The notes beneath the pieces are model-generated. The model ran no database searches and had not been told where the DNA came from. It saw nothing but the letters and a program-made list of their open reading frames with translations. This document shows positions 1 to 31,919 of a stretch of DNA of 34,924 bases, in pieces. Within the stretch, counting starts at the first letter, position 1. Each line of letters starts with the position of its first letter. The translations under genes were made by a program, and so were the position numbers. This DNA comes from a virus, in the IMG/VR virus record IMGVR_UViG_3300009515_000011, positions 1 through 34,924 of that record; one strand, 5' to 3'.

Positions 1-268
1 CCCTCCGGGCTGATGCCGAGGAGCCAATCGTCGGCGCCGTCACAAGGATGTGCTCCGCCTTTCCGGTTGTCGCTGGTACGAATGCCACGGCCCAGCCATC
101 GCTCGCCGGGTCCGTCAATGTGAACTGGGAGACGTTCGCATGGTTCCAGGAGAACAGAACCTGATATTCGCCCAAGTCCACAGCTGCCACCGAATCGTCG
201 ACATACTTCTTGGTCGAAGACTCTTGGTCTATCTGCGGCGCAGGAGTGCTCTGGTGTGCAAGCCTCAT
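1..268 (-). CDS. Tail fibre-like protein, N-terminal part (cut by window edge)
   Basis: The first 89 codons of a gene that runs off the left edge. The ATG at 268 overlaps the stop of the upstream glycosyltransferase gene as ATGA, which fixes the start and suggests translational coupling. The product begins MRLAHQSTP and continues with TKKYVDDSV, a sequence style common near the N-terminus of phage tail fibre and receptor-binding proteins. The xLxHQ opening is shared with the proteins starting at 8625, 11070 and 13224, so it probably belongs to the same set of distal tail proteins. The visible remainder is beta-rich with no recognised catalytic motif. Role as a fibre or adhesin is inferred from position and the shared leader; the missing C-terminus prevents a firmer call. 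Confidence 0.7.
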   Translation of the reverse strand, partial: MRLAHQSTPAPQIDQESSTKKYVDDSVAAVDLGEYQVLFSWNHANVSQFTLTDPASDGWAVAFVPATTGKAEHILVTAPTIGSSASARR

Positions 269-1698
269 GGAATGGCCCCTAGTCTATACCCTGATTGACG
301 AACCTGTCTTGCTGCCTCCAGCACGTCATCCCATGCCATCAGAAGCTTGCCATACTGCCTCGTCGCAAACCTTGTGATGTCCGCAGCAGCTTCGAGGCCG
401 TATCTTTCGCCAAGCTGCATCTCGACTGGGATTGAGTACCGCCCCTTGTCCTTGGCTCGCTCTATCGCGCGTAGAGCATTGTTTAGTGCAGACGGGTCTT
501 TGGCCTTGCTTGCTGCCTTCTCGATGACAGGGATGAGTTGCTGACGCCTCTGTTGGGCCACGAAGCCCAAGAACCCAGTGAAGTGCTTGAGTCCGCTCTC
601 TGCCTCGTTAAGAAGTCGTCGGCCGACTTCGCTCAGGGGCGTTCCTGCTGGAAGCTGCCCAACCACATAGCTAATTAGCTGGGGTAGGTGGACCTCTTCC
701 AGTCCGAAGTACTTAACCGCCTTGTCATAGCTACGCTCCTCAGGAGGATCGTGCCTCATTGCCCATGGAAGATGGGCAACCATCGATCCAGGACATGAGC
801 AAGCCATTAGCGCCCCGGTCAATGACTCGCCACCCAGTGTGTGCTCGTTGGATGACGTAGGCAGGCACGGCGGAATGCCATCGCGATTATCAAATGCAAC
901 AGGCTGTGAAGCACAAAACACCGTCGACGACAACACCACTTCCGGTGGCGCTCTGAACACATCTCGCGTAACCCCTGAATACCCGAGAACGGAAAAGTAC
1001 AAAGAGCTAGGGATGCCAGCATCGCCGACGGTTCCCGCCTGCACCGCGCGCACTACTCCGCCATCGGTTGGATAGCCACGAACCTGTCGCCACTTCAGCT
1101 TCATGCATCCCGCCGACGTGAGCCCAAGGGTCTCCTCGAACAGCGCGAGCACGTCCTGATTCCAGGCAAACTGAGTCCGACTGAATGACTCTTCCTTCGT
1201 CGAGAAGAAAGAGACACTGGTTGGATCGTTCGCATAGGGCAACGATCCACCACTCCGCAAGAAACGCACTGTTCGTTGCCCACCAGGCGTTCCAGCCACC
1301 TCGCATACCATGTCGTCGTCTACACTGAGAAAGCAGTCCCCAAGCGTGTGTAAGATCGCAGCATTTCGCGTACCTCCCACAGGACATTCAAGCCCCGGAA
1401 CTCCGCGAAGAGCAAAAAATGCCAGCCTGCGCGGCACGCCCCTCTGTGAGAGACGAGCAATGAATGAGTCCACCTCTCGGTCAACGGCGTAGTAAACGCG
1501 AAGCCTGTACTTGTCGTACAGGTCTCTGATGGCCTTCTTGTTCTGCCCCCTGATCTGATGAGTGCTCGACTTATCAAGCACAAAAAAGTCAACATCCCTG
1601 CCGTGAAGCTTGGCATTGACCATATGGCTACGCAGTGCCCGCTTGAAACTCTCTGGTCGGTCCTTTGTGGGAACCGCTATGGTTGCAATTCCTGCCAT
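265..1698 (-). CDS. GT-A family glycosyltransferase-like protein
   Basis: A 477-residue protein. The N-terminus IAVPTKDRPESFKRAL (residues 6-21) has the look of the beta1-loop-helix of GT-A (family 2-like) glycosyltransferases. Residues 109-133 carry GGTRNAAILHTLG followed by SVDDDM, matching the conserved RN helix and the acidic DxD metal/nucleotide-sugar motif (D127-D129). The C-terminal third is helical and not assigned. The expected role is transfer of a sugar from an activated donor, in the host cytoplasm. The acceptor is unknown; the location between fibre genes suggests a virion protein, but host surface glycan is also possible. The start at 1698 lies 2 bases past the stop of the LamG gene and has a weak ribosome binding site. 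The stop overlaps the next ATG. Family assignment is fairly secure; the acceptor is inference. Confidence 0.7.
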   Translation of the reverse strand: MAGIATIAVPTKDRPESFKRALRSHMVNAKLHGRDVDFFVLDKSSTHQIRGQNKKAIRDLYDKYRLRVYYAVDREVDSFIARLSQRGVPRRLAFFALRGVPGLECPVGGTRNAAILHTLGDCFLSVDDDMVCEVAGTPGGQRTVRFLRSGGSLPYANDPTSVSFFSTKEESFSRTQFAWNQDVLALFEETLGLTSAGCMKLKWRQVRGYPTDGGVVRAVQAGTVGDAGIPSSLYFSVLGYSGVTRDVFRAPPEVVLSSTVFCASQPVAFDNRDGIPPCLPTSSNEHTLGGESLTGALMACSCPGSMVAHLPWAMRHDPPEERSYDKAVKYFGLEEVHLPQLISYVVGQLPAGTPLSEVGRRLLNEAESGLKHFTGFLGFVAQQRRQQLIPVIEKAASKAKDPSALNNALRAIERAKDKGRYSIPVEMQLGERYGLEAAADITRFATRQYGKLLMAWDDVLEAARQVRQSGYRLGAIP

Positions 1699-1700
1699 AG

Positions 1701-2903
1701 CTACTGGCAGATCACCGCCGAAACAACGATGTTGGTCAGAGGGCCAGGGCCAGTGTAGTTGCTACCGAACTCATCAATGAGCGTGGACCTCCAGTACACT
1801 TCTCGCGACAGCGTAGTATCTGTTGCCCTCATGCGATAGATAAAAGCCGCCTGCTGAGCCGTGCCGGACAACTGCTCAAGTATCCCGTTGACAGCGTCGA
1901 ACGCGAAATCGCTGAAGTACGGCATGTCCTGGGGAAGTGTTCCGCCCTGCAGATCGCTGTTCAATCCGCCAGGATGCACATCCTGAAACCCTTCACCGCT
2001 GAAGTACGGCATGTCCTGGGGGAGTGTTCCGCCCTGCAGGCCTGTAACGATCGCCCCGTTGGTGGCGTCGGCAGAGTCCGACGATGCCGGTGCTGCGGTA
2101 GCTGGTCCGTTTATGTCCGCCCTGGCATCTACCTCCCCCGTGTCAAGCATGATCCCTGGAGGTTCATCGGCATCCTCTGCGATTGGCCCGTTCGTCTCCA
2201 AGTAAGTGTCTGGACCGCCGCTGCCTGTCCCGTGATCTATATGTCTCCTGCTGTTAAAGAGGCCTGTCTCTGTACCGACAGCAGGACCGCCCTTGTAAAA
2301 ATCGAGACCCAGAGTGGCCATTCCGTCAGAGTCCCTAAATATGAGCTGGTAGTTGTCTGAGATCTCCGTCCCGGTCCTTAGGTCAACCCACATTCGGAAG
2401 CTGAAAACGAGACCATCCACACCGTCGGTACCGTCGCCAAACAGGAATGATGTCCCATCCGCCGACGGAATCGATGAGCAATCCGTCCCACTCGTAACGG
2501 TTCCGTTGCCCTGGCTCACCGCATCGACGTACAGCTCAAACTGGGTAGCTGACGCGTTGCTGATGTCACAAACAACTGCCATGTGAACCCAGGTGGCAGC
2601 GCTGACAAGCCCGTTCAGGTTGAACGTGACTTCGTTGTGTTCATCTGCTGCGGGCCCCGCAGTCGTGACCTCCTGGATGTAGCAAACGAGGGTTGGATCA
2701 ACTGTGTCATCGGACTTGTAGATCCGAATCAACTCTCCACCGCTGGAGTGGTTCAGGGACCAAAAGAGCTGATCTTCACCATTGGTAAGAGACTCTGGCT
2801 TCCACCACCACTCTACGGTGAAGTCTCCAGTTGGGTGTACAGAGCCACCCGTCGGGTGACTAATGTACTGGCCACTGGAGCGCTCATAGTCTGCTGACGG
2901 CAT
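1701..2903 (-). CDS. LamG/concanavalin-like tail adhesin
   Basis: A 400-residue protein. Residues 1-210 look like a LamG/concanavalin A-like jelly roll: DFTVEWWWKPESL, a central ATWVHMAVVCD strand and a later FSFRMWVD strand are the usual landmarks of Laminin_G_3-type domains, which often bind glycans in phage tails. A proline/aspartate/alanine-rich linker follows, then two copies of LQGGTLPQDMPYFS (29 residues apart) that come from a 43-base DNA repeat. The C-terminal block (YRMRATDTTL to TGPGPLTNIVV) is homologous to the C-terminus of the protein at 6175-7101, so the two share a terminal module. No signal peptide or catalytic motif is visible. It is most likely a receptor-binding or decorating protein of the distal tail. 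Confidence 0.7.
   Translation of the reverse strand: MPSADYERSSGQYISHPTGGSVHPTGDFTVEWWWKPESLTNGEDQLFWSLNHSSGGELIRIYKSDDTVDPTLVCYIQEVTTAGPAADEHNEVTFNLNGLVSAATWVHMAVVCDISNASATQFELYVDAVSQGNGTVTSGTDCSSIPSADGTSFLFGDGTDGVDGLVFSFRMWVDLRTGTEISDNYQLIFRDSDGMATLGLDFYKGGPAVGTETGLFNSRRHIDHGTGSGGPDTYLETNGPIAEDADEPPGIMLDTGEVDARADINGPATAAPASSDSADATNGAIVTGLQGGTLPQDMPYFSGEGFQDVHPGGLNSDLQGGTLPQDMPYFSDFAFDAVNGILEQLSGTAQQAAFIYRMRATDTTLSREVYWRSTLIDEFGSNYTGPGPLTNIVVSAVICQ
1910..1952 (-). repeat. 43-base direct repeat, copy 1
   Basis: Inside the LamG gene. It matches bases 1997-2039 with one visible mismatch and encodes LQGGTLPQDMPYFS. The two copies start 87 bases apart, a multiple of three, so the reading frame is kept. 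Confidence 0.9.
1997..2039 (-). repeat. 43-base direct repeat, copy 2
   Basis: Partner of the repeat at 1910-1952, with a single base difference. Near identity at DNA level points to a recent in-frame duplication of an 87-base (29-residue) unit. Confidence 0.9.
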
Positions 2904-2909
2904 AGGAAC

Positions 2910-4208
2910 CTACGACAGAACCGGCACTGACCCATCCCAGGGGATGACAATGTCCTGAAGCACAAGGAATTGCCTACTGGAATCCGCCGGAATCGTCTGC
3001 CCCGGCAGCATGGATGTTGACACCCACCACATGTCCTTGATCTGCCCAATGCGACCGCGCGACGACAGCTGCAGGCAGGCAATACCCATCGGGAACATCG
3101 GCCACTCACCAGTCAGCTCATTCACCACGGTCAGGTTCTGACCGTTCGCGGACGAAATGAATCCCTCCGATGTCAGGTACAGGACGGGTACGTGCCGGTC
3201 GGCCACACCCGTAATCCCTGACGGAATCCGGCTTCCGGTGCAGTGAGCTGAGTCGTTGAACACTCCGTACGTTGCGCGGTTGGCGAGACTTCCCGACTTG
3301 CTCATGACAGAGATGTAGGCGTCCTCTATGGAAGACCAAACCGGGTGGGGCTCCTTGACCTTCTCGTCAAACCAAATCATGGGAACGGTGCCGTTGACAG
3401 CCCCGATAACCCTTGTGTGCTCCCCGTCACTGCTCATCATTACGTGCAAATTCGCAATGAAGTTCGTCCCCGCCGACGTCCCAATGAACCACTGGGACCC
3501 CGATGAGCTGTACAGCGTGTGGGCATCAGACGGCGACGTAGCCCCAGGGTCTGTGCGACTCGTACCCACGGGACTGCCGTCGAGAGAACCCCTTGCCAAG
3601 AACGTGTTCGGCGCCGTAGTCAGTATGAGCGTTCCGCGCCCCTGGTTGTTCAGATCGATGTCACCGGATATGCACCACTGTGTACCTGAGATTGTGTTCC
3701 TGAGAACGCAATAGGCATTGTTCCCTGTCGAGTAAAGGAAATCCGAGAAGGTAACCAGCCTGTCTACCTCATCTCCAGGGACGCCCAGGATGGCACTGGT
3801 GCCCGTCGTGTCCACAACCCATGGAACCACGGTGAAATTGCCACCCAGCACCTTGGCGCTCCCTGCAATCGCCTCGACGACAGCCGATGCGTTGACATAG
3901 TCCGCCGTCGTGGCGGTTGCCGCAGTGATGGTGAAGTCACCGTCATTGGCAGGCGAGGTCATGCCTCTGAGTCGCAGAGTCTTACCTACCATCGATCCGT
4001 CAAAGATTGACCCGACGTTCTGCACACGATACGTGGACCCCGACACAAGAGCGATGTCTCCGACCGCGTACTCATGGGCAATCGTATCTGTCAGTGCATT
4101 CTTGAGAGCCAGGGCGAACACCTGATGTGACGACTCGTAATCGTTCTTCGCGCATAGAATCTTCAGGTGCCGAAACTCCCATGTCTTTTCAAGTGCAGGT
4201 AGGGCCAT
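2910..4208 (-). CDS. MALP-type tail paralogue 3 (unknown function)
   Basis: A 432-residue protein and one of three paralogues in this cassette (with 4218-5558 and 7108-8169). All begin MALP(A/T)L(E/D)KTW and end with RQF...(I/V)PW(D/N)G; here the end is RQFLVLQDIVIPWDG. The middle has the shared MSSDGEHTRV strand (SDG/DDG followed by an R-hydrophobic pair). Residues about 50-125 hold a subdomain with TSPANDGDFTITA that is also in the 4218-5558 protein but missing from the 7108-8169 one. The sequence is beta-rich without a signal peptide or catalytic motif. The start is supported by AGGAGAG nine bases upstream, overlapping the stop codon of the preceding gene. I do not recognise the family; position and fold style suggest a distal tail or adhesion protein. 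Confidence 0.8.
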   Translation of the reverse strand: MALPALEKTWEFRHLKILCAKNDYESSHQVFALALKNALTDTIAHEYAVGDIALVSGSTYRVQNVGSIFDGSMVGKTLRLRGMTSPANDGDFTITAATATTADYVNASAVVEAIAGSAKVLGGNFTVVPWVVDTTGTSAILGVPGDEVDRLVTFSDFLYSTGNNAYCVLRNTISGTQWCISGDIDLNNQGRGTLILTTAPNTFLARGSLDGSPVGTSRTDPGATSPSDAHTLYSSSGSQWFIGTSAGTNFIANLHVMMSSDGEHTRVIGAVNGTVPMIWFDEKVKEPHPVWSSIEDAYISVMSKSGSLANRATYGVFNDSAHCTGSRIPSGITGVADRHVPVLYLTSEGFISSANGQNLTVVNELTGEWPMFPMGIACLQLSSRGRIGQIKDMWWVSTSMLPGQTIPADSSRQFLVLQDIVIPWDGSVPVLS

Positions 4209-4217
4209 CGTACTCTC

Positions 4218-5558
4218 CTAGCCATTCAACTGGGGCAAGCTTCCGTTCCACGGAACAACCATATGCCCAAGCTTGAGGAATTGACGGGATGTGTTGTTTG
4301 GGAAAGTGGCGCCCTGGTTTGGCGGACGGGAGATTTGGTCATTGACGAACCAAACATCTGACATCCGTCCGTGTCTCCCACGGTAGCCGACCGTCGTTGC
4401 GGCTAGTCCGATATTGAAGAACGGGAACTCGTCGTCGAGATCGCTCGGGTGATCTGGGAACTGTTCCGCAAGCATCCCTGACCCAAGCATCTCCTGGGTC
4501 ATATAGAGTGCCGCAAAATGCGGCCCCGTGGTCGCCGCATCCTTGTCAAGCGTCGCCCTCAGCTGTGCGCTGTCGTTCCACACACCGTGCGTCATGACGT
4601 TGCTGTCCGTAGCCTTCTCCCACGTCATGACATTCTGGCTGCCGTTCCATACGATCAGCGGCCCTGCCGTGATCGGATCCTTCGCCCTGTCGCAGAGAAA
4701 GAACTGCCCCACTCGACCCTGGGTGGCCAGGAACAGTCTGGTGTCCTCTCCGTCGTCGGAAATCATCACATTCCCAAACCAGACCTGGTTACTCACGCTG
4801 CCGTCCCCAAGCCATCTGTCACGGTCCTGAACAGTCACCTCATCAACTGCAGTCGGCCTGGAGTTCGTCCCGCCGCCGGTGAATCCAAGCTCAGGAGACA
4901 CGTAAACGCTGGCATCCCAAAAATCCTCATTCGAGAACGTGGAATAGTGCTCCAACAACAACTCAGCGCCGGTGATCTCGTTCTGCCACACGAACCAGGA
5001 ACGGTTGCCGCCCGTAGAGGTAGAGCCCTGCAGATCGCTGGTAGTCAGCCAGCGATCACGACCATCCATGGCCGCCCCCTTGCCTGTACTGCCCGCACCG
5101 GACCCCTTGCAAATCCAGGATGACCCAACGCCACCCGAGCCGCCCGAGAACTGCGCGTTGAAGACTTTGTAGCTGCCGGAAAATGCTTCGGCCACACCTG
5201 AGGCATTGGAGTACCGGATCGTATTGGTCCCTGGCACAGCCGTGATAGCGAACTTGCCATCATTGGCGGGCGAAGTGGCTCCAATGATTTCGATCGTTCT
5301 ACCAATCAGAGACGCATCAAAATCTGGCGAGGCCCCAAATGGGTCAATAGCAGCTTGCTCTGTGGCAACCAGCTCATAGGTCACGCCTGCAACGATCTCA
5401 TTGATGGTTCCGTCTAGCCCATGATGGGTCTGTCCCATGAGCAGATTCTTGACTGCCAGGGACAGCTGTGCACCGGCGGTCTCATCATTCGTCGTCGACA
5501 CCACCCAGCGCCTATTGACATCGAACTCCCAGGTCTTTTCTAGTGCAGGCAGCGCCAT
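4218..5558 (-). CDS. MALP-type tail paralogue 2 (unknown function)
   Basis: A 446-residue protein, the longest of the three MALP paralogues. It opens MALPALEKTWEF, identical over 12 residues to the 2910-4208 product, and ends RQFLKLGHMVVPWNG. Residues about 60-135 contain the TSPANDGKFAITA subdomain shared with the 2910-4208 protein. A further shared strand reads MISDDGEDTRLF. The sequence is glycine- and tryptophan-rich and beta-type, without signal peptide or enzymatic motif. The start has GGAG about 11 bases upstream. It most likely arose by gene duplication next to its neighbour and forms part of the distal tail. The molecular function is unknown. Confidence 0.8.
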   Translation of the reverse strand: MALPALEKTWEFDVNRRWVVSTTNDETAGAQLSLAVKNLLMGQTHHGLDGTINEIVAGVTYELVATEQAAIDPFGASPDFDASLIGRTIEIIGATSPANDGKFAITAVPGTNTIRYSNASGVAEAFSGSYKVFNAQFSGGSGGVGSSWICKGSGAGSTGKGAAMDGRDRWLTTSDLQGSTSTGGNRSWFVWQNEITGAELLLEHYSTFSNEDFWDASVYVSPELGFTGGGTNSRPTAVDEVTVQDRDRWLGDGSVSNQVWFGNVMISDDGEDTRLFLATQGRVGQFFLCDRAKDPITAGPLIVWNGSQNVMTWEKATDSNVMTHGVWNDSAQLRATLDKDAATTGPHFAALYMTQEMLGSGMLAEQFPDHPSDLDDEFPFFNIGLAATTVGYRGRHGRMSDVWFVNDQISRPPNQGATFPNNTSRQFLKLGHMVVPWNGSLPQLNG

Positions 5559-6174: not shown

Positions 6175-7101
6175 TCACGTGCCGAGGACCTTGTGGACAA
6201 CGATGTCCGTCACCGGACCTGGGCCTCCGTACTCACTCGCATCAGAATCTACTTCTGTTGACCCCCAATAAACAATAGAGGTGAGGGTCGTATCATTGCC
6301 TCTCATGCGATAGACCAAAGAACCGCCACCCCCCACCGCGCCTGACTCGTTCACAACTTGTGCCTCAAAGTAGTTCAGGTTTCCACCACTGGCGCCGCCG
6401 TCGACTGGCACAAGGGACGTGCCGCCCTGGAAGCCATGCACCTCGCCTTCGATAAACGTCAGACTGCTGTTAGTCAGCGTGTTGGCGTTCCCTGAAACAT
6501 CAGTAAAATCATTGTCAAGGCCGAGTCCGATTTGGAGGTTGGTTGCCGACGCAACATCACTCAAGTAGTCGTCGAACATCTCCGAGTCTGTGCGCTCATC
6601 GTCAAAGACGCGAACCTGATCGATGTATCCCCGATACCCATCATCGCCGCCTCCATCCAGGCCACAGATGGTGAACGCGGCTGCGTTCACACGCACCGTT
6701 CCCGTTCCGCCGATCGAAACCGCCGATCCAAGAGGCAGCCCGTCCTGGTAGAACTGAACCTCGGGCGTTCCACTACGGAAAACAGCCCCGACCCAGGTCC
6801 ACCTGTCGACTACAAGACTGAGCCCCGACGAAACCGCAGAGAATGTGGCCAGCCCTGATCCTGTCGTTGAGTACGTGAACCCAAGCTCATCAGAGGCATC
6901 CAGCCCAAGCATGTAAGCCCAGTCCTGGTTCTCGACGACGGTGTCGACCTTCCCCATCAGCGTATACGCAGAACCGATCGAGGTTGGACGTATCCAGCAC
7001 GACAGCGTCATGGACGCGGCTATGTCTAGCCCCGTCTGAGACGCATCCGTAATGAATGCGCCTTGGTTGTCAGCTGTAGCCTGTGCTGAATGGGTACTCA
7101 T
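6175..7101 (-). CDS. LamG/concanavalin-like tail adhesin
   Basis: A 308-residue protein. Residues 1-195 form a clear Laminin_G_3/concanavalin A-like lectin domain: MTLSCWIRPTS, WTWVGAVF, VQFYQDGLPLG and GYRGYIDQVRVFD are the standard strands of that fold, including the YxDxVRVFxxE ending. The C-terminal block (YRMRGNDTTLTSIVYWG to GGPGPVTDIVV) is homologous to the end of the LamG protein at 1701-2903, and FQGGTS resembles the repeat unit LQGGT there. AGGGAGCC precedes the ATG, overlapping the upstream stop region. The likely role is glycan or protein recognition at the tail tip. No enzymatic residues were seen. Confidence 0.8.
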   Translation of the reverse strand: MSTHSAQATADNQGAFITDASQTGLDIAASMTLSCWIRPTSIGSAYTLMGKVDTVVENQDWAYMLGLDASDELGFTYSTTGSGLATFSAVSSGLSLVVDRWTWVGAVFRSGTPEVQFYQDGLPLGSAVSIGGTGTVRVNAAAFTICGLDGGGDDGYRGYIDQVRVFDDERTDSEMFDDYLSDVASATNLQIGLGLDNDFTDVSGNANTLTNSSLTFIEGEVHGFQGGTSLVPVDGGASGGNLNYFEAQVVNESGAVGGGGSLVYRMRGNDTTLTSIVYWGSTEVDSDASEYGGPGPVTDIVVHKVLGT

Positions 7102-7107
7102 GGCTCC

Positions 7108-8169
7108 CTAGAAAGCGTTCTCTGGAATGGTGCCATCCCAGGGTACGGCGATGTTCTCGGCTACCTTGTGAAACTGGCGAGTACCGTTCGCTGGGAACGT
7201 GTCTCCGTTTGCCCGAGCGTTTGTCACTAGCCAGATATCCTTCAAGCGACCCTTGGGGCCACGGACACCGGCGCTGTCGGTGTCCCACATGGAAATCTCA
7301 CCAAACACGGTTTCGCCTTCGACCTCGTCCCCGACCCCTGGAACTGTGGCTGCATTCCAGAGGGATACATTGCCCGATGAATGCACGTAGTTCAGGTAGA
7401 CGAACTTGTGAAAGTTGCCTACGCCTCGTACGTTGTCGCTGCTTCCGTGAAGCCATCCATTGGTAGCATCGTGTGTCGATCCGCACTCGATTGCTTGAGT
7501 ACTCGTGGACCAAATGGATCCGTAGAGGTTGTGAGCCGCAGAGGGCGGCGCATCTGCCGCCTCCCCGATTGCCCAAATGGTGTAACAGACGTTGTTGTTG
7601 AGCATGAAGATCCTCAGCTCAGCCCCGTCGCTACTCATCAAGACATGGAAGGCGCTGTCTACTCCGTTGGACGTCTGTCCACCGGCCCACCAGCCAACCG
7701 TTGTTCCAATGGTAATTTCATTTGTCTCGTCCGATGCCGTCGGCGCGTCTGTTGTAGATCCGCCCGTGTAGTTGCCTCCTGGAGAGATGGCAACGCGAAT
7801 ACTTTCCGGCTGGCTATCGGCTGTCGCGTTGTTGTTGTTGTCCAGATCAATGAGGACCTGAGCGCTGCCCCCGTTCATGCCTGTATCAAAGACAATCCAG
7901 CTATGAGGATCTCCGGGGCGGTCCCAGATGAGATCTCCTGTGGTCGTCCACCTATCGGTCGCGTCCATTCCAGCCGCTGTCGAGTCACCGGACCCAGCCA
8001 CGGTCCAGATGCCGGTTGGAGTCGTGTCCCACGCAATCGGCGGCGATGTATTGGCCAGGATGTTCTTGAGATCCAACATCATGCTCTTGTGCCAGGCCGC
8101 ATTGACGGCTGTAGCTTGCTTGTTGTTGATGTTGAATCGCCAAGTCTTATCCAGTGTGGGTAGCGCCAT
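7108..8169 (-). CDS. MALP-type tail paralogue 1 (unknown function)
   Basis: A 353-residue protein, the shortest of the three MALP paralogues. It starts MALPTLDKTWRFNINN and ends RQFHKVAENIAVPWDG, matching the other two at both termini. The shared central strand is LMSSDGAELRIF. It lacks the roughly 75-residue SPANDG subdomain present in the 2910-4208 and 4218-5558 proteins, so that subdomain was either gained before their duplication or lost here. The composition is Asn/Thr/Gly/Trp-rich and beta-type. The start has AGGGA upstream. Function is unrecognised; a distal tail or adhesin role is inferred from context. Confidence 0.8.
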   Translation of the reverse strand: MALPTLDKTWRFNINNKQATAVNAAWHKSMMLDLKNILANTSPPIAWDTTPTGIWTVAGSGDSTAAGMDATDRWTTTGDLIWDRPGDPHSWIVFDTGMNGGSAQVLIDLDNNNNATADSQPESIRVAISPGGNYTGGSTTDAPTASDETNEITIGTTVGWWAGGQTSNGVDSAFHVLMSSDGAELRIFMLNNNVCYTIWAIGEAADAPPSAAHNLYGSIWSTSTQAIECGSTHDATNGWLHGSSDNVRGVGNFHKFVYLNYVHSSGNVSLWNAATVPGVGDEVEGETVFGEISMWDTDSAGVRGPKGRLKDIWLVTNARANGDTFPANGTRQFHKVAENIAVPWDGTIPENAF

Positions 8170-20027: not shown

Positions 20028-22244
20028 CTAGGTGGTCACCACCGATGCCGCATCGACGACTTCGCTTGTCACTGTGATAGTTCCACGGGTCACCACCTCG
20101 AAGTCCTGTACTGGAAGGTTGCCGTCCGAATCGATGAGCGTTACGGGGCCCACGATCTTGATGTTAACGAAGTCAACACCGTCGATCTTGACGTCGTCAG
20201 GCGCCGGGGCGATGGGTGCATACAGCTCAGACAAACGCAGTGTTACGCCAAACTTTCGCCCTCTCAGCACCCCGAGAATCTCAGCCTCGACCTGGGACCT
20301 AACGGACGACTCATTAAACCCTGTCAAGATGCCGACATGCGCTGTAATCGATGCAGCGACCAGGAGGTTGCTAGCACCAGTCACCTTGACAACCTGAGTC
20401 ACCTCCTTGGCCGCATCGAGATACCTCTGCAACGAAGACTGAAGCCCGATAGTCGGAACCACGTAGAAGCCCTCTGAATCAAACGTGAGCACAGGGACCT
20501 CGATGAGGTTCGACTGACACTCATTCGACAAAAATGAGTCAACGTGGTCCGAGATGTCCGTCGTCAGCGTGGTCACATCATCACTGATGTCATCAATGTC
20601 TGTGTCCAGGGTTGTTGCCGTGGACTTCAGGGAGGTGTTGCTCGTTTCGATTGAATCGATGTCTGTACGAATAGAGGCCCGCAGGGTCTCCGAGCTATCT
20701 GCCTTCGCGTTTATGACATCGAGTTCCGTTGTGATGGATGTCGTGTTCGCAAGGATGGTTCCAGCCTGAGTCGTTACCTCTGAGTTTCTGGCATCAGCTG
20801 TAATTCTCGCAACATCCATTGTCCCGAGATACCCAAGAAGGGTCGACAGTAGGGTGGCCCCTATCTCCCCTGCACCAGCAGCAACCGGGGCTGCGTTGAT
20901 GTCGGTGACAATGCTGTCGTGCTGCGTGTCGATAGTTCCAAGGTCCGTACTGATGGAGATAGAGTTCGAGCTGATGACCCCTGCAGCAGTCCGAGTGCTC
21001 TCGTTGGCCGCTCGGGCCGATACTTCAGCCGTGGCGATGTCCGAGATGTCTGTCGCCAGGGAGGAATCATCCGTCTGCGCATCAGATACAGACGATGCGA
21101 TCGAGTCGCTGTCAGCGCTGATTGAAGTAACGGCCGCATTGACGGTCGGCACCACGCTGTCTGCTTCAGCTCGGATGGATGCAAGCTTCGAAGACAGGAA
21201 GGCATCGTCCGATGAGCCACGAACAGAGATTGCCTGAGCTACTGCAATGGAGCCAAACACCGGGTCCACGAACGACTGCGCACGGGCCTCGTAGTCCTCG
21301 ATGGTTACATTGACGTTGCGCGCCTTGAATACCGTGGGCGCATTTGCCTTGACGCTCTCAATGGTCTCCGGGTCACTACCCCCGCTGGTACCTTCAGGGT
21401 TCGTTACGACCAAGCCGATCTGCTCAAAGCTGACCACGAGTGGGACTACCGGGGAAGTGATCGTTCCCTCTGTCGCCTGGCCGTTGACACCGGACGTTAC
21501 AAAGAACGAGATGCGAACCTCTGCCCCGTCCTCAGGAATTTTGCCAGCGATACCGTCGCCAAACCGTAGCGTTGCCGGGTCATCGTTGTACCCAATCTCG
21601 AACTGTTCCGTATCGCCAAAGACAAGCAGCTCCTGTTCTTCCCAGGCGTTGCCGTCAACCTCCACAGTTACCTGTGAAACGTTCTCCGTACCTGGACCAA
21701 CAATGAACTTGCCGTCAGGAACGTTAGCGATCTTGAACACCTGGTTCGCCGAACCATCCGACGTGAACACCGTCGTAAGGGTCTCACCCTCGGATGCGGT
21801 AACCGTCTTTGTAGACGTGTCGGAGATCGAGAACTCCAAGTCCTCCTGGGTCTCAAAGACCAGGCCAGCAGGCCCCTGGAACTTGAAGCCAGCAGGGATG
21901 GGAATCGGAAACGTGTTCGCCTGATCTACAAGCGTGATACTGAGATCGACGCTGGACGCCGTTGAGGCACCAACCTTGTAGCCAAGCTGGCGGGCCAAAC
22001 GCGACGCCGACGACAGCGTCCTCGCGGTCGAGAGGAAGTTGTCGGTCGCTCGCCTGTCCAGGTAGAACGACAGCGTGTCCAACCCGAACGAGAAGATGTC
22101 CACAAGCATGATGCCCAGGGACGAGACAGCGAAGTCATTGAAGACCGTCGCGAACTTGACCTGCAAGCGCGAGAGGATCTCATCTTCATGGGTGTCGAAG
22201 TCGAGACCCGCGTACCGGACGCGTACTAGATTTGCACTCGCCAT
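20028..22244 (-). CDS. Baseplate wedge protein, gpJ/gp6-like, with coiled-coil insertion
   Basis: A 738-residue protein of the Baseplate_J family (P2 gpJ, T4 gp6), which forms the wedge ring around the hub. Supporting sequence: SLGIMLVDIFSFGLDTLSFYLDR (42-63), PIPAGFKFQGP (116-125), LRFGDGIAGKIPEDGAEVRI (226-245) with GVNGQA (252-257), and ARNVNVTIEDYEARAQSF (308-325). Normal C-terminal sequence resumes at about 600. Between residues 345 and 575 lies a Ser/Thr/Asp/Ala-rich, heptad-like segment absent from ordinary J proteins, probably a coiled-coil spoke projecting from the wedge. GGGGGAG precedes the ATG. It sits immediately downstream of the gp25-like gene, as in many myophages. Confidence 0.88.
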   Translation of the reverse strand: MASANLVRVRYAGLDFDTHEDEILSRLQVKFATVFNDFAVSSLGIMLVDIFSFGLDTLSFYLDRRATDNFLSTARTLSSASRLARQLGYKVGASTASSVDLSITLVDQANTFPIPIPAGFKFQGPAGLVFETQEDLEFSISDTSTKTVTASEGETLTTVFTSDGSANQVFKIANVPDGKFIVGPGTENVSQVTVEVDGNAWEEQELLVFGDTEQFEIGYNDDPATLRFGDGIAGKIPEDGAEVRISFFVTSGVNGQATEGTITSPVVPLVVSFEQIGLVVTNPEGTSGGSDPETIESVKANAPTVFKARNVNVTIEDYEARAQSFVDPVFGSIAVAQAISVRGSSDDAFLSSKLASIRAEADSVVPTVNAAVTSISADSDSIASSVSDAQTDDSSLATDISDIATAEVSARAANESTRTAAGVISSNSISISTDLGTIDTQHDSIVTDINAAPVAAGAGEIGATLLSTLLGYLGTMDVARITADARNSEVTTQAGTILANTTSITTELDVINAKADSSETLRASIRTDIDSIETSNTSLKSTATTLDTDIDDISDDVTTLTTDISDHVDSFLSNECQSNLIEVPVLTFDSEGFYVVPTIGLQSSLQRYLDAAKEVTQVVKVTGASNLLVAASITAHVGILTGFNESSVRSQVEAEILGVLRGRKFGVTLRLSELYAPIAPAPDDVKIDGVDFVNIKIVGPVTLIDSDGNLPVQDFEVVTRGTITVTSEVVDAASVVTT

Positions 22245-31328: not shown

Positions 31329-31919
31329 TCAGTGACTTTCCTTGCTTCCGTAGCCATCAACCGCCACCAGCAGAAGACCCTTGAGCGCATCTGTGTAGCT
31401 GAGATTCCGCTCTTGACACATGCCCTTGAAGACTTCGTACTGAGCCCCATCAACCCAACCATTGACCTTCACATCAGAACCAGCGTCCTGCCAGCTCTGC
31501 AGATCTTCGTACAGCTCAGGCTGCGTGATGAACGACGTGATCATCGACCTCAGCAGAGCCGACACACTTCCGAACCTGGAGCCATTATGGGCGTAGGCAT
31601 GCACCGTCTGATGCAAGACGCCACTGATGAGAAAGTTGATAGGGGTCTTGTTGTCGATGCGCTGAGGGAGGACTCGCGCGCTCTCAGCGGCAATCCTACA
31701 GTCCCGACACACAACTACGCCGTTCGAACTGCGCAGCTTACCGCCCGCCTCAGGCGGAATCACAAAGCATGCAGCCACCCTGTCGCGCCGAGTGCAGTTG
31801 ACACACTCGTGTCCGCATCGCTCCAAGACCGCTTCCTTCCATTCCAGAAGGTCGGTCACGTCTGACAGTGGTCCGGGGTGGGGCTGTTTCAAGGGATACC
31901 TCTCAATGGAGATACCCAC
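31329..31919 (-). CDS. Degenerate HNH-type zinc protein with ribbon-helix-helix-like repeats
   Basis: A 196-residue protein starting with GTG, with AGAGG upstream. Residues 33-75 resemble an HNH endonuclease: CVNC (39-42), IPPEAGG (54-60), SNGVVVCRDC (65-74). The histidines that make HNH enzymes active are gone (VAAC replaces the usual xDHI; Arg follows the last Cys), so it is probably a zinc-binding, non-cutting fold. Residues about 93-131 (INFLISGVLHQTVHAY...SVSALLRSMITSFI) and 150-187 (VDGAQYEVFKGM...SYTDALKGLLLVAV) both look like ribbon-helix-helix units. It could bind DNA or another protein. It sits among the assembly genes between tube and tape measure, so either a regulator or a tail chaperone is possible. 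Confidence 0.55.
   Translation of the reverse strand: MGISIERYPLKQPHPGPLSDVTDLLEWKEAVLERCGHECVNCTRRDRVAACFVIPPEAGGKLRSSNGVVVCRDCRIAAESARVLPQRIDNKTPINFLISGVLHQTVHAYAHNGSRFGSVSALLRSMITSFITQPELYEDLQSWQDAGSDVKVNGWVDGAQYEVFKGMCQERNLSYTDALKGLLLVAVDGYGSKESH

Follow-up and report, generated by a model that had tools for sequence, protein, structure and literature searches.

A glycosyltransferase-like gene packed between adhesin and fibre-like genes in a large myophage lineage, and its sparse bacterial family

A gene placed between an adhesin gene and a fibre-like gene of a contractile-tailed phage encodes a protein that belongs to a glycosyltransferase (GT)-like family with conserved donor-site motifs, and copies of this gene persist in the adhesin–fibre region of sister phages. 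We prefer the reading, at a rough probability of 0.43, that the protein is a captured peptide/protein glycosyltransferase acting on the co-expressed adhesins or fibre. The window, by which we mean the whole 34,924-nucleotide stretch analysed, is a linear virus fragment of 34.9 kb (IMGVR_UViG_3300009515_000011). It carries a one-strand tail module with genes for sheath, tube, hub, tape measure, and gp25- and gp6-like baseplate proteins, followed by adhesin genes. The features discussed below are as follows.

2–268, minus strand: N-terminus of a fibre-like protein, ORF truncated by the contig end (similarity to sister-phage gene starts)
265–1698, minus strand: predicted GT-A-fold protein, 477 amino acids, ATG start (ORF call and structure prediction)
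1701–2903, minus strand: LamG-like adhesin, 400 amino acids (Pfam PF13385, E = 4.5e-14)
2910–4208 and 4218–5558, minus strand: two paralogous adhesin-like proteins (sequence comparison)
6175–7101, minus strand: second LamG-like adhesin, in the same operon as 1701–2903 (Pfam)
7108–8169: third paralogous adhesin-like copy (sequence comparison)
20028–22244, minus strand: gp6-like baseplate wedge protein, used as the bait for sister phages

Gene position and predicted fold

The GT ORF sits 2 bp downstream of the LamG gene at 1701–2903, and its stop codon overlaps the ATG of the fibre-like ORF in an ATGA (−4 bp), which confirms the placement given in the preliminary description. From the contig end as far as the gp6-like baseplate gene, 19 genes, all in one direction, follow one another with gaps of no more than 24 bp, and the GT protein is encoded alongside virion structural genes. 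The truncated ORF begins MRLAHQSTPAPQIDQESSTKKYVDDSVA, and its residues 1–30 or 1–39 are 46–47% identical to gene starts in the sister phages L061 and L062; the fibre label, which derives entirely from this N-terminus, is a putative one.

Other features of this region were observed in the adhesin genes themselves. The three adhesin-like paralogues at 2910–4208, 4218–5558, and 7108–8169 belong to one operon and are 27–30% identical to one another. The LamG gene contains a 62-nt direct repeat (1891–1952 and 1978–2039, 84% identical) that duplicates LQGGTLPQDMPYFS, and residues 260–284 of the adhesin form an A/S/T/P-rich linker that might, speculatively, serve as an acceptor. A 46-residue C-terminal module is common to otherwise unlike adhesins of the clade (1701–2903 and 6175–7101 in the window, L061:21541–21684, and L063:18698–18820). 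The idea that this module is a GT-specific partner was dropped, because it also ends adhesins away from GT genes. An HNH-endonuclease-like ORF at 31329–31919, within the tail module, is 69% identical in L062.

The GT protein begins MAGIATIAVPTKDRPE and contains SVDDDMVC at residues 126–133; its motifs are located at residues 111–113 (RNA), 127–129 (DDD), 270–272 (DNR), 309–313 (HLPWA), and 316 (His). In an AlphaFold2 model of moderate quality built from a nine-row alignment (pLDDT 66.6, pTM 0.65), D127-D128-D129 follows the strand at 122–125, as a DXD metal motif does, and the conserved H316 ends the strand at 305–316. A Foldseek search of the PDB returned 19 matches at E ≤ 1e-3, every one a glycosyltransferase. 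In the VIA-align comparison, GT75 enzymes ranked at the top (OsUAM2, Z 17.4 over 284 residues; MtdL, Z 16.6 over 287), followed by GT2-type enzymes with Z of about 15 or lower over about 200 residues. These matches support a predicted GT-A (Rossmann-like nucleotide-sugar) fold, and the earlier assignment of a GT-A-type protein with a DDD motif holds at the level of the model. The protein has no transmembrane-like stretch (maximum 19-aa hydropathy 1.11), making a membrane glycolipid enzyme less likely. The C-terminal transmembrane helices of the O-antigen-converting GtrB type are absent, and no adjoining gtrA-like ORF was seen by eye. The protein had no match in Pfam, PHROGs, NCBIfam, PDB sequences, INPHARED phages, or plasmids, including tblastn against INPHARED at E ≤ 0.01.

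GT75, which includes the reversibly glycosylated polypeptides (RGPs), UDP-arabinopyranose mutase, and MtdL, is the best structural match (Z 17.4–16.1 over 253–290 residues). It shares with the new family a DXD motif, a conserved His ending a late strand, and, in the bacterial members, an R-x-x-D motif. However, the new protein has a long helical C-terminal region, the window copy lacks R-x-x-D, no Pfam RGP match was obtained, and no counterpart of the self-glycosylated Arg was seen by spacing. A profile of the family found no PDB sequence, so the link to GT75 is a structural one. The GT2 family (PF00535) has the same fold class, and weak PF00535 similarity was detected in 5 of 9 family members (best 7.5e-4), whereas the window protein had no match and neither it nor the family members reached the gathering score. 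The motifs DNR..PPF.P and HLPWAxxH were seen within the new family only.

The bacterial family and its gene contexts

A DNA pattern for HLPWAxxHxP matched 14 loci across 84,980 genomes, eight of which were true homologues covering most of the length of the GT protein (E 4e-44 to 7e-13). They came from five Oscillatoriales cyanobacteria, a single Latescibacterota MAG (two loci), and a MAG labelled "uncultured proteobacterium"; in viral_contigs, all that the HLPWA pattern gave was chance matches. In profile searches, members were found in 8 of 188 genomes in the phylum of the "uncultured proteobacterium" MAG (the query's own source counted), in 1 of 299 Pseudomonadota genomes, and in 1 of 149 genomes in the phylum of a Phycisphaerae MAG, and one further member, weak and partial, was found in cyanobacteria. 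Judged from these sequence searches, the family is sparse and absent from Pfam, NCBIfam, and PHROGs. The full-length homologues (E to 4e-44), together with the adhesin-region copies in two sister phages, indicate that the GT ORF is not a chance reading frame. The family motifs are T..R, GxxRNA, DDD, GD, DNR..PPF.P, R-x-x-D, and HLPWAxxH, with DDD present in all bacterial members, and the window protein carries the core set T..R, GxxRNA, DDD, GD, DNR..PP, and LPWA..H.

Most bacterial members with a known full frame have an N-terminal extension of about 115–170 amino acids that Pfam does not recognise. The model of this domain is poor (pLDDT 50). Its top seven structural matches were all RiPP recognition elements (RREs), including TbiB1 with its leader peptide (Z 5.8), TigE, CteB, ThcOx, and LynD, and the first non-RRE match had a Z of 3.3. 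Such an RRE-specific pattern is unlikely to arise by chance, and the domain is predicted to be an RRE. The bacterial members would resemble RRE-containing RiPP enzymes (TbiB1, CteB, and LynD) in fusing an RRE-like N-terminal domain to a catalytic domain. They differ in that the cyanobacterial members lie beside NRPS and carrier domains, and all phage copies lack the RRE-like domain, the window protein starting at the GT domain.

In the cyanobacterial members, the GT protein also contains a carrier domain and adjoins an NRPS gene. At two Oscillatoriales loci (L025:4839–8000 and L012:5451–8000), the GT domain lies behind a carrier-protein and an RRE-like domain, directly upstream of the NRPS gene, making these loci candidate glycopeptide clusters. 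In the phylum of G003, the GT gene at six loci adjoins a same-strand gene for a lipoprotein or secreted protein, and three of the six neighbours combine MopE metal-binding repeats with a lamin-tail domain. These MopE-repeat and lamin-tail lipoproteins lie directly upstream of the GT genes (L049:9662–11419, L050:6406–7581, and L056:10175–12145). A crude lipoprotein test was positive for four of the six GT neighbours versus 21 of 152 background genes, a modest enrichment (chance 0.004, rising to 0.04 when a hit on either side is accepted). The RRE-like domain and the neighbour genes point to peptides or proteins as acceptors, the acceptors themselves being read solely from the neighbours, and the bacterial members look like, and probably are, peptide/protein glycosyltransferases.

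Copies in sister phages and the catalytic residues

Relatives of the window phage were found via the gp6-like protein. Three are close (gp6-like proteins 61–66% identical): L061 (197-kb record), L062 (194 kb), and L063 (110 kb). A family member is present in the adhesin–fibre region of three of these four large myophage contigs (the window, L061, and L063). The L061 copy, of 466 amino acids, lies between an adhesin and a fibre gene with the same ATGA overlap as in the window, and the fibre downstream of it, which is similar to that of the window, begins MRTAHQNVPTPQL. The L063 copy, of 294 amino acids, lies behind an adhesin and ahead of a fibre-like gene. No family member was found in L062, nor in twelve more distant phage records (gp6-like proteins approximately 40–55% identical), several of which are fragments. 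Profiles built without L061 and L063 still recovered both (5e-30 and 2e-11; best shuffle 0.03), and in the tree the window, L061, and L063 copies grouped together (support 88/82). This grouping, on long branches, tentatively fits one old capture. When the L061 and L063 copies were used as queries for close relatives, each recovered only itself. A podovirus-like contig has an intact stand-alone member with R-x-x-D (L026:2473–3891), located between the terminase and portal genes.

In MtdL, the third Asp of the DXD motif and the His ending the late strand bind Mn2+, Arg257 contacts the beta-phosphate, and the base is proposed to be Asp260 (PMC9937993). The spacing of DDD, H316, and R-x-x-D in the new family suggests that they correspond to these donor-site residues. 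Among 15 bacterial sequences, the Arg of R-x-x-D is present in all and the Asp in 14, and both residues are intact in the second phage, L026. In the window copy, R-x-x-D is replaced by SSNEHTLGGES, in a loop that is five residues longer and has no Arg; a possible substitute for the Asp is E291, and DDD, RN, DNR, H316, and R322 are retained. The L061 copy, which by eye has the same longer loop, has lost DDD (replaced by AST), RN, DNR, R-x-x-D, and the His but has kept its 466-aa length, the C-terminal motif, and the ATGA coupling. The L063 remnant retains DSD and a His. As far as can be read from the residues, the catalytic site is decaying across the sister phages, with open frames persisting beside the adhesin and fibre genes. 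The loss of R-x-x-D in the window and the degenerate sister copies mean that GT activity should not be assumed. The protein acceptor proposed in the preliminary description stands in part: it gains independent support at the family level, from the RRE-like domain (a low-confidence model) and the NRPS and secreted-protein neighbours, and glycosylation of virion proteins is a putative activity.

Possible roles of the phage protein

The strongest rival of a glycosyltransferase is a pseudo-enzyme, in which the GT-A fold is kept for its binding surface, as a non-catalytic chaperone or scaffold of the co-translated adhesin or fibre, with an active site whose residues are being lost or are already gone. 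Three related phages hold an intact ORF in the adhesin–fibre region. L061 keeps its length, C-terminal motif, and coupling with the catalytic motifs gone, L063 has a 294-aa member with DSD, and the window lacks R-x-x-D; the membership of L061 and L063 holds with profiles that exclude both, and the three copies group at 88/82. However, DDD, RN, DNR, H316, and R322 of the window copy fit a working donor site, and the absence of a copy from L062 implies that the role is dispensable or replaceable. The degenerate L061 and L063 copies are one sequence each, so functionless decay looks the same as a new function, and we regard the pseudo-enzyme as unlikely. A more specific history, in which a captured peptide-modifying GT, translationally coupled to the fibre, became a non-catalytic partner in adhesin or fibre maturation and its active site has been eroding step by step in the sister phages, seems unlikely too, and somewhat more so. 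Alternatively, the GT gene may be a passenger that the window phage carries in a hypervariable adhesin region without any selected role, as the mosaic region, the lack of the gene in L062, and the degenerate sister copies would allow. The long open frames, the tight junctions, and the presence of a copy in three of four related phages make this quite unlikely, and the GC content of the gene (56.0%, versus 56.6% for the phage) indicates that it is not a fresh import.

The preliminary description gave DNA modification and O-antigen conversion as the usual roles of phage GTs, which is too narrow, because GTs acting on virion proteins and GTs of tail-fibre regions have already been described. Mycobacteriophage capsids and tail tubes are glycosylated by phage GTs (Freeman et al. 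2023, as reported in PMC12619734 and PMC11600133). The window protein resembles these enzymes in being phage-encoded and proposed to act on virion proteins, whereas its gene is linked to those for adhesin and fibre, and the targets named in those reports are capsid and tail tube. Pelagimyophages carry GTs, mostly GT8, in tail-fibre hypervariable regions, interpreted as LPS-modifying (PMC7029224). The window gene likewise lies among the tail-fibre genes of a large myophage, but its family has peptide and protein contexts in bacteria. By analogy with the pelagimyophage interpretation, the window protein could modify a surface glycan of the host, or one of its peptides or proteins, so as to exclude superinfection or change the receptor, and could lie near the fibres since both concern host recognition. 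We consider this role unlikely, since the protein has neither a transmembrane stretch nor Gtr-like partners, the bacterial contexts indicate peptides and secreted proteins, and co-expression with late virion genes would be late for exclusion. Glycosylation of DNA bases against restriction, a frequent role of phage glucosyltransferases (PMC12619734), is very improbable for a gene in a tail operon: no base-modification gene was recognised in the window, tblastn gave no similarity to annotated phage GTs, one sister phage has no copy, and the bacterial kin occur in peptide contexts. Just as improbable is a GT75-type nucleotide-sugar mutase rather than a transferase. The top structural matches, OsUAM2 and MtdL, aligned over 253–290 residues, would favour it, but no conserved Arg was seen at the spacing expected for the self-glycosylated Arg159 of MtdL (PMC9937993), R-x-x-D is lost in the window, and neither the window protein nor the family members match the RGP Pfam family (PF03214).

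Under the preferred reading of a captured peptide/protein glycosyltransferase, the ORF at 265–1698 would encode a soluble cytosolic GT-A enzyme of a family undescribed in the libraries searched, whose bacterial members would modify peptides or proteins with the RRE-like domain as a guide. A large myophage lineage would have taken the catalytic part, without this domain, into its late adhesin/fibre operon, where tight packing and the ATGA overlap would couple synthesis of the enzyme to that of the LamG adhesin and the fibre. We infer that the protein would be active and would use a host nucleotide sugar as donor to glycosylate a co-expressed tail protein before assembly, and that this modification would alter receptor binding, stability, or recognition.

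Phage virion glycosylation (in mycobacteriophages) and GT genes in tail-fibre regions (in pelagimyophages) were already known. The new elements are the GT family, the RRE-like and secreted-protein contexts in which it occurs, the linkage of the phage gene to those for adhesin and fibre, and catalytic residues that are lost by degrees. Whether or not the phage protein is active, a GT family with an RRE-like domain occurs in cyanobacteria, Latescibacterota, and other bacteria outside Pfam, NCBIfam, and PHROGs. If the phage protein is inactive, an enzyme fold would have been recruited into tail assembly; if it is active, a phage enzyme would be sugar-coating the phage's own receptor-binding proteins, adding to sequence change a further layer of variation in host range or immunity.
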